Source: Halorubrum ezzemoulense DSM 17463
GTDB lineage: Archaea; Halobacteriota; Halobacteria; Halobacteriales; Haloferacaceae
Direction of reading: 5' to 3'
Assembly: GCF_002114285.1 (NCBI RefSeq)
Contig: NZ_NEDJ01000030.1
Coordinates: 1 to 36,826, forward strand
DNA length: 36,826 nt
In this document: positions 16,751-18,285 of the stretch, piece after piece
Layout of the letters: each line of letters begins with the position of its first letter
Numbering within the stretch: the stretch's first letter is position 1
Made by a program: the position numbers and the translations under genes
The notes under the pieces: model-generated
Seen by the model: only the letters and a program-made list of their open reading frames with translations
What the model was told of the DNA's origin: nothing
Database searches by the model: none

Positions 16751-17803
16751 TCAGACCAGCCGTTCCGCGATCCGCGCCGCGCCCTCCGCGGCCGCGGTCG
16801 CGGGGCTGTCGGGGGAGACGACCTCAACGTCGCGGTCGAGCTCCTCGGCGAGGCGCTTCTCGAACTCCTCGGTGAGCCCGGGGATACACGCCATGCCGCC
16901 GGTTGCGGCGAGGGGGCGCCCGAGCGCCAGCTGGTATGGTTTCATGTGGTCGTTCGCGAGCTCCGGGAGGAACTCGTTGGCGACGACGTCGACCGCCTCG
17001 TCGATGTACCGGTCGACCGGCTCGCGGACGCCCCGGTCGACGGTGAACTCGTGGCTTCCGCCGCCCGGCTGCTGGATCACGTCCGTGAACGGCTCGAAGT
17101 CGTACACGTCCGCGTGCTCCTCTTTATACTCGCGGGCGGTCGTCCGGTCGATGTGGACGCGGCCCTGGCTCTCCTCCTCGACGGCGGCGACGATCCGGCG
17201 GTCGACCTCGTTACCCGTCACCGAGCCGGTCGAGAACGGCGAGAGCTGCTCGCCGCGCCGGTAGGCGCACGCCTCCATCGTCGTCGACCCGAGGTTCACC
17301 GAGACGAACACCTCGTCGATCGCGTCAAGGTCGTCGCCGTAGGCGGGGATCGCCCCGCACAGCGACTCGGGGTAGCTCCGGGTCTCGACCTGGCCGATGG
17401 AGGAGCCCTCGATCACCGACTTGAGGTTCTCGACGCCCGCCTCGTTGTCGATGGTCGGCACCGCGTAGACGACCGCGCTGTCCTCGGGCACGTCGTAGGC
17501 ATCTACGATGGCCTCGAAGAAGCGCTCTGCGTCCGCGACGCTGTCGTCGTCCTCGGGGAGGCCCGACCGCAGCATGAAGCGCACGCGGTCGGGGTACTCG
17601 ACCGCGGCCTCCTCGCCGAACAGCACCTTCTCTTCGCCGGTGATGGCGTCCTCGTAGGTCGCCAGACAGGTCAGCACCGAGTGGCGCTCCCGTCCGCCCC
17701 GCCCGTCGGGAACGTCGAGCACCGTTCGGGTGCTGCCGAGTTTTACGCCGACCGCTGCCGATTCGTCCGATTCGTTGATGTCCGTGGATTCGTCGTCGCT
17801 CAT
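16751..17803 (-). CDS. Salactin-type actin homologue
   Basis: A 350-residue actin/Hsp70-fold protein matching the haloarchaeal cytoskeletal actins (salactin of Halobacterium, volactin of Haloferax; recognised from family features, not an alignment). The nucleotide site is laid out as in actins: phosphate-1 loop VGVKLGSTRT (18-27), connect segment ESLCGAIPAYG (about 146-156), phosphate-2 loop VFVSVNLGSTTMEA (165-178) and adenosine motif ATGGMACIPG (300-309). Residues 1-16 are a flexible acidic tail. The usual aspartate of the phosphate-1 loop is replaced by Lys21 and that of phosphate-2 by Asn170. Salactin forms dynamically unstable polar filaments linked to DNA partitioning. The start overlaps the stop of the upstream FlaD/E-like gene by four bases, so the two are translated together. 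Confidence 0.85.
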   Translation of the reverse strand: MSDDESTDINESDESAAVGVKLGSTRTVLDVPDGRGGRERHSVLTCLATYEDAITGEEKVLFGEEAAVEYPDRVRFMLRSGLPEDDDSVADAERFFEAIVDAYDVPEDSAVVYAVPTIDNEAGVENLKSVIEGSSIGQVETRSYPESLCGAIPAYGDDLDAIDEVFVSVNLGSTTMEACAYRRGEQLSPFSTGSVTGNEVDRRIVAAVEEESQGRVHIDRTTAREYKEEHADVYDFEPFTDVIQQPGGGSHEFTVDRGVREPVDRYIDEAVDVVANEFLPELANDHMKPYQLALGRPLAATGGMACIPGLTEEFEKRLAEELDRDVEVVSPDSPATAAAEGAARIAERLV

Positions 17804-18285
17804 TGGTCACTCGCACACGAAGCGATCCGGACGATGGAGACGAGACTGATCCGGTGGTCCGCCGGCGTGAACGGCCGGTCGCGCGTCGGGGCGTCGAACC
17901 CCTCCAACCGGCGCGTCAGCGCCGCGACCGCGTCGTCGCCGACCCAGTCGAGCTCGCCGTAGTAGGACAGCACGTCCCGGCTCCGCACGTGGCCGCCGAC
18001 GTCGACGAGGTAGCCGAGCCACTCGCCGATCTCGCGTTCCGCCGCGGGCGACGCCGGGATCGCCGTCAGGTACGGCCGATCCGCGGGGTCGTCGCCGTCG
18101 AACCGCGCACCACGCTGACGCTGGAGCAGCTCCGTGAACGCGGCCGAGCGCGCCGCCTGCTCGGCTCGGTTCCGGTTCGGCCGCCGGAGCGCCCGCTCCC
18201 GAGGCGCCCCGTCCGCACCGTCTCGCGGCGCGTCCGCGATCCGGCGCAGCTCCCGTACGTCGTATCGTCGTGGATTCAGACTCAT
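17800..18285 (-). CDS. Archaellar FlaD/E-domain protein, operon partner of the actin
   Basis: A 161-residue protein. The N-terminal 65 residues are basic and charged (MSLNPRRYDVRELRRIAD, then an Arg-rich stretch). Residues about 70-155 resemble the FlaD/FlaE domain of archaellar cytosolic-ring proteins: PYLTAIPASPAAEREIGEWL, then GYLVDVGG, DVLSYYGELDWVGDDAV and the closing FTPADHRISLVSIVRIA. FlaD/E proteins connect the archaellum base to the cell pole and to chemotaxis. The stop overlaps the actin start (ATGA), which strongly suggests translational coupling and a shared process. No other archaellum gene is in the window. I chose the ATG at 18285, preceded by a GGACGGAAAC purine tract. A TATA-like ACTATCATATG lies at about 18335-18345. 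Confidence 0.75.
   Translation of the reverse strand: MSLNPRRYDVRELRRIADAPRDGADGAPRERALRRPNRNRAEQAARSAAFTELLQRQRGARFDGDDPADRPYLTAIPASPAAEREIGEWLGYLVDVGGHVRSRDVLSYYGELDWVGDDAVAALTRRLEGFDAPTRDRPFTPADHRISLVSIVRIASCASDQ

Follow-up and report, generated by a model that had tools for sequence, protein, structure and literature searches.

Why does a gene for an actin homologue in a haloarchaeon begin inside the stop codon of a gene for an archaellum-type protein, and what could the two products have in common? The question arises from the window analysed here, a stretch of 36,826 nt from Halorubrum ezzemoulense DSM 17463. An earlier note, made from its sequence alone, had pictured the small protein as a polar anchor, nucleator or filament regulator built from an archaellar part.

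An actin gene overlapping a gene of the FlaD/E family

The second gene of the pair (16751..17803, minus strand) encodes an actin-family ATPase of 350 aa. It matched the Pfam model PF25229 with an E-value of 4.3e-176 (585 bits) and scored 569.5 bits against the curated NCBIfam salactin equivalog NF053533, for which the cut-off is 400. Judged by its sequence, the product is salactin, as the earlier note had called it; dynamically unstable filaments emanating from the cell poles are documented for the H. salinarum protein only (PMC10746226). The start of salactin was also correctly placed inside the stop codon of the upstream gene: minus-strand bases 17803-17800 read ATGA, and the arlD stop and the salactin start share these 4 nt (17800..17803). 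From this overlap fixed co-expression had been deduced. The overlap is real here and in the majority of Halorubrum loci, with a spacing of +2 nt in the remainder, but it is a trait of the Halorubrum lineage and not general, since the gap elsewhere is usually ~25–200 nt. The loci closest to the window belong to Halorubrum species, with salactin identities of up to 97%, and the genes flanking the pair in the window appear unrelated when judged by eye, e.g., a shikimate-dehydrogenase-like ORF downstream.

The first gene of the pair (17800..18285, minus strand) encodes 161 aa. Its sole domain recognisable in profile searches is PF04659 (Arch_fla_DE), matched over residues 69–155 (17821..18081, minus strand) with 59.9 bits against a cut-off of 21 (E 2.4e-16), which confirms the suspected resemblance of the C-terminal part to FlaD/FlaE. 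AlphaFold predicts a short N-terminal helix, a variable linker of low confidence and then a confident, all-helical domain (pLDDT ~85–95). Overall identity outside Halorubrum is ~33% in an alignment of 44 orthologues. The proteins share the N-terminal motif M-x-[IL]-[ND]-P-x-x-Y-D-x-x-E-L-R (18244..18285, minus strand), in which M1, P5, Y8, D9, L13 and R14 are invariant, the window protein included; the start at 18285 is backed by M1 and NP..YD..ELR aligning in 44/44 orthologues. The motif reads MSLNPRRYDVRELR in the window protein and MTLNPREYDPEELR in Halobacterium ArlD, and its value as a salactin-binding signature is ambiguous, since salactin-less genomes of family f6 and some Halobacterium keep it too. 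Structural databases added little: a sequence search of the PDB with the 161-aa protein returned weak, chance-like matches only, a profile search of the PDB gave no match, sequence searches revealed no solved structure of a FlaD/E protein, and Foldseek with the ArlD model against PDB and BFVD yielded nothing at E ≤ 0.001. One of the weak matches was GrgF, with a whole-sequence E-value of 1e-3, although its best single stretch reached only E 0.3.

Two PF04659 genes are present in the window genome, this one and an ArlCE gene on another contig. The genome carries ArlCE, ArlF-J and archaellins, with arlCE-F-G-H-I-J on contig C103 and the pair on C79. The small gene hence lies outside the archaellum cluster; a place in or near that cluster, which usually marks arlD but does not define it, was found in Haloferax and some other Haloferacaceae. 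In a tree of the domain, the salactin-linked proteins of other genera formed one group with the small f6 FlaD and with Halobacterium ArlD, the one encoded beside arlCE, and the ArlCE proteins fell outside it; the tree was built on few columns and the Halorubrum proteins sit on a long branch, so that their exact place is unsure. Because the small protein groups with archaellum-locus ArlD and is encoded by the only non-ArlCE PF04659 gene of its genome, it is best read as the ArlD of haloarchaea, diverged in Halorubrum. The idea of an anonymous protein derived from an archaellar part thus stood with respect to the domain, but not with respect to the anonymity; most relatives have no other candidate for ArlD.

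The divergence could also mean that ArlD has been neofunctionalised in Halorubrum and works for salactin alone, no longer for the archaellum, which would be compatible with the explanation preferred below for the other genera. Besides the long branch and the low identity to other ArlD proteins, a PF04659 E-value of 2e-16 compared with ~1e-26 to 1e-30 in many relatives would fit, as would Halorubrum G108, which has ArlCE and archaellins and neither an arlD-like gene nor salactin. However, the N-terminal motif is intact and the protein is the sole ArlD candidate in a genome with ArlCE, ArlF-J and archaellins, and we regard such a change of function as rather unlikely.

Conservation and genomic context of the pair

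The sample covered 33 salactin-bearing genera, and 29 of them have one or more species with arlD directly upstream of salactin (17/17 genera in f1, the family of the window; 11/13 in f3; 1/1 in f5; 0/2 in f2). The genera lacking the adjacency are the two Halobacteriaceae-type genera of f2, one of which is Halobacterium, as well as g56 and Halosimplex, where 5 kb separate the genes; the two are also apart in some species of g37, g44, g50 and g56. The same-strand arrangement was seen in 97 loci at first pass and in 120 locus entries, some of them duplicates, after loci had been added. When the neighbours were compared at 19 loci, with antisense shadows of the pair left out, arlD was common to 18 and the next-best neighbours to at most 6. 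No other real neighbour of salactin is conserved so widely: arlD-salactin is a conserved haloarchaeal gene module, its recurrence excludes a chance pairing, and a peculiarity of this one strain is clearly refuted. Both genes are under purifying selection, which is weaker on arlD (median dN/dS 0.32 vs 0.15–0.16 for salactin). A gene fusion of ArlD and salactin was sought and none was found, the lone match being a broken salactin locus. Salactin homologues outside Halobacteria do not lie beside PF04659 genes, and some of these genomes have no PF04659. Two Halorubrum loci (L159 and L160; genomes G210 and G310) keep an ArlD-like gene, with no salactin found and other ORFs in its place.

In Halobacterium, salactin lies apart from arlD, which there stands ahead of arlCE. 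Zheng et al. (2023, PMC10746226) reported poor synteny around salactin even within Halobacterium and named no partner. Gene neighbourhood was uninformative in that study because its view was limited to Halobacterium, which is among the genera with the pair split.

The observation that no other archaellum gene is near the pair holds for the window but does not extend to its relatives. In Halorubrum and Haloarculaceae, a long distance separates the pair from the archaellum cluster; several genera of Haloferacaceae have it embedded among the archaellum/chemotaxis genes, and in several genera of this family other than Haloferax salactin is found ~8–13 kb from arlCE. In Haloferax (L154), arlJ-I-H-G-F-CE occupies one strand, with a KaiC-like gene, archaellins and a small regulator after arlCE, and cheY-cheC-cheD-arlD-salactin homologue the other. 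ArlD/HVO_1202 is listed as one transcription unit in H. volcanii (2026, PMC13286277), and the gene order suggests that HVO_1202 is probably the salactin homologue. Volactin (HVO_2015) is an unlikely candidate for the Haloferax PF25229 protein, as the Haloferax genomes checked have their PF25229 match adjoining arlD, among the archaellum genes. Additionally, a second small FlaD/E protein is encoded near the pair in Haloferax (L154:17575-18027(+), L057:7122-7574(+)), and Haloferax mucosum has a second salactin with a second-type small FlaD/E protein downstream.

Retention without an archaellum and a possible polar role

Salactin was present in 186 of the 391 genomes of the class examined, each with at least one PF04659 gene (186/186). 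In 96 of the 391, no convincing ArlC domain was detected; all 10 of these that carry salactin have PF04659 (10/10), and none of the 86 without salactin does (0/86; Fisher 9e-14, a value not corrected for kinship). One of the 10, G187, was dropped from the archaellum-less set owing to its archaellins. The remaining set comprises 9 genomes from 5 genera with no intact archaellin (a broken gene in G289, none in the other 8). In 8 of these 9 (4 genera), the small FlaD/E gene adjoins an intact salactin; in G379 (L173), salactin is broken, split across two frames, and the FlaD/E gene is ~4 kb away. The archaellum-less genus g69 keeps salactin with a degenerate N-terminal motif in ArlD, and its genomes (loci L167, L168, L169) carry multiple copies of salactin, just one per genome with a FlaD/E neighbour. 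On the other side, many archaellum-bearing haloarchaea are devoid of salactin, and in 10 salactin-less genomes the single PF04659 gene has an ArlC match, i.e., it represents ArlCE, with no small ArlD.

As the pair is kept in archaellum-less genomes, and genomes with neither archaellum nor salactin have no PF04659, a second function of ArlD, linked to salactin and independent of the archaellum, is probable, and a polar adaptor or anchor is its most likely form. Retention without an archaellum supports an actin-related role in general; whether this would be that of anchor, nucleator or regulator goes beyond it.

What is known about the two proteins shares a polar theme, in line with the earlier note. 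In H. volcanii, archaella depend on ArlD (FlaD) and FlaD-GFP forms polar foci (PMC6509185), ArlD-ArlCE binding is cited in PMC8978795, and MinD proteins affect ArlD positioning (PMC11588486). In H. salinarum, salactin filaments extend from the poles; cells that have lost salactin show a disturbed distribution of DNA in low phosphate and no motility defect (PMC10746226). ArlD is small and helical, carries a peptide motif at its N-terminus and is known from Haloferax volcanii as a polar part of the archaellum motor/switch. We propose that it would dock, nucleate or regulate the pole end of the dynamically unstable salactin filaments. One polar site would then be shared by the actin apparatus, which Zheng et al. 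tied to DNA partitioning, and, in species that have it, the swimming motor. Given the conserved linkage and the retention without a motor, a polar adaptor for both archaellum and salactin is the simplest reading. We infer that ArlD binds salactin, that it acts on salactin rather than the reverse, and that some part of it would contact the filament. That ArlD also serves salactin, the two forming one conserved module, appears somewhat favoured (probability roughly 0.55).

Some observations count against such a module. Motility gives no sign of joint action in the strains concerned, because FlaD-GFP alone fully restores motility to the flaD deletion (PMC6509185) and the salactin deletion shows no motility defect (PMC10746226). 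The genes are unlinked in Halobacterium, the only genus in which salactin has been studied. Two Halorubrum genomes have an ArlD-like gene and no salactin, no link to PF04659 was found outside Halobacteria, and the N-terminal motif is degenerate in g69 even though salactin is kept there.

The dependence could run the other way, with salactin serving the archaellum: its filament might position polar motors, help them to be inherited or build part of the polar cap, with ArlD as the docking point and the archaellum-less pairs as remnants or re-used. The position of the pair inside the archaellum/che cluster of several Haloferacaceae genera agrees with this idea, as do the need for ArlD in making archaella and the influence of MinD that its positioning is already under. 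Yet the pair persists with intact salactin in the 8 archaellum-less genomes of 4 genera, numerous haloarchaea have an archaellum and no salactin, and Halobacterium swims normally when salactin is deleted; we consider this reading unlikely.

Proteins encoded in one operon need not touch each other, and the pair might be linked by co-regulation only, through a shared promoter inherited from an ancestral archaellum locus. The split pairs in Halobacterium and in some species of four further genera are compatible with this, and so is a tethered ArlD-linker-salactin AlphaFold model (a single-chain read-through from Haloarcula rara with 80 rows and Q in place of stops), which reached a pTM of 0.63 with salactin well folded, ArlD weak (~50–80) and no interface score. 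However, the remaining neighbours all turned over while the pair stayed together in three families, there are 0 salactin-bearing genomes without PF04659, and archaellum-less genomes keep PF04659 only with salactin, which makes mere co-regulation quite improbable.

ParA-family neighbours and comparison with known systems

At many loci of Haloarculaceae (Haloarcula, Halomicrobium, Salinibaculum and others), a gene for a ParA-family ATPase lies divergent from arlD, e.g., L063:4269-5150(-), and in Halosimplex the ParA-arlD pair persists though salactin has moved 5 kb away. In family f4, an archaellum locus (L148) likewise has a ParA-like gene next to one for an ArlD-like protein. Outside Halobacteria, ten loci show a salactin homologue followed by a coiled-coil gene and then a ParA/MinD-like gene, with no adjacent ArlD (e.g., L193:8321-10710(+), L198:7601-10119(+), L196:7626-10204(+)); their hosts, family f15 and its neighbours, are possibly Archaeoglobi. 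The ParA-family association is correlative and supports a positioning or segregation role for salactin. More tentatively, and at somewhat less than even odds, the archaellum switch protein ArlD might be a dual-use polar hub that also anchors or nucleates an unstable actin, often with a ParA-type ATPase alongside. If so, haloarchaea would run motility and the positioning of chromosomes or other cargo from one polar module.

Salactin and ArlD are each already known. Their linkage was not found described in the literature searched on salactin and volactin, with subscription papers and preprints outside the search, and the same literature contained no characterisation of the actin homologue beside arlD in H. 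volcanii (probably HVO_1202). The conserved linkage names a candidate partner that may hold salactin at the pole and bear on its function. For H. volcanii, a strain deleted for arlD and a functional ArlD-GFP already exist, which makes this candidate readily accessible there. If the proposal is true, ArlD, known only as a motor part, would gain a role that outlives the loss of the motor.

Among known systems, the crenactin-arcadin operon of Pyrobaculum likewise has an archaeal actin gene beside genes for small partner proteins, with an actin of a different subfamily; arcadins are not known to be FlaD/E proteins. ParM/ParR and MamK are bacterial actin systems with an adaptor or a positioning role. 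In contrast to ParM/ParR, no ParR-like DNA-binding partner was recognised here, and the partner is an archaellum protein. MamK represents the actin subfamily nearest to salactin (PMC10746226). The salactin of H. salinarum (VNG0153C, PMC10746226) belongs to the same actin family as the window protein, which passed the NCBIfam equivalog threshold; unlike in H. salinarum, the salactin gene has arlD as its partner in nearly every other haloarchaeal genus of the sample. With the ArlD/FlaD of the ArlCDE switch complex (H. volcanii, H. salinarum), the small protein shares the FlaD/E domain, the N-terminal motif and the clade, but here its gene is paired with that of an actin and, in Halorubrum and Haloarculaceae, lies at a distance from the archaellum genes; it is also kept where the archaellum is gone.
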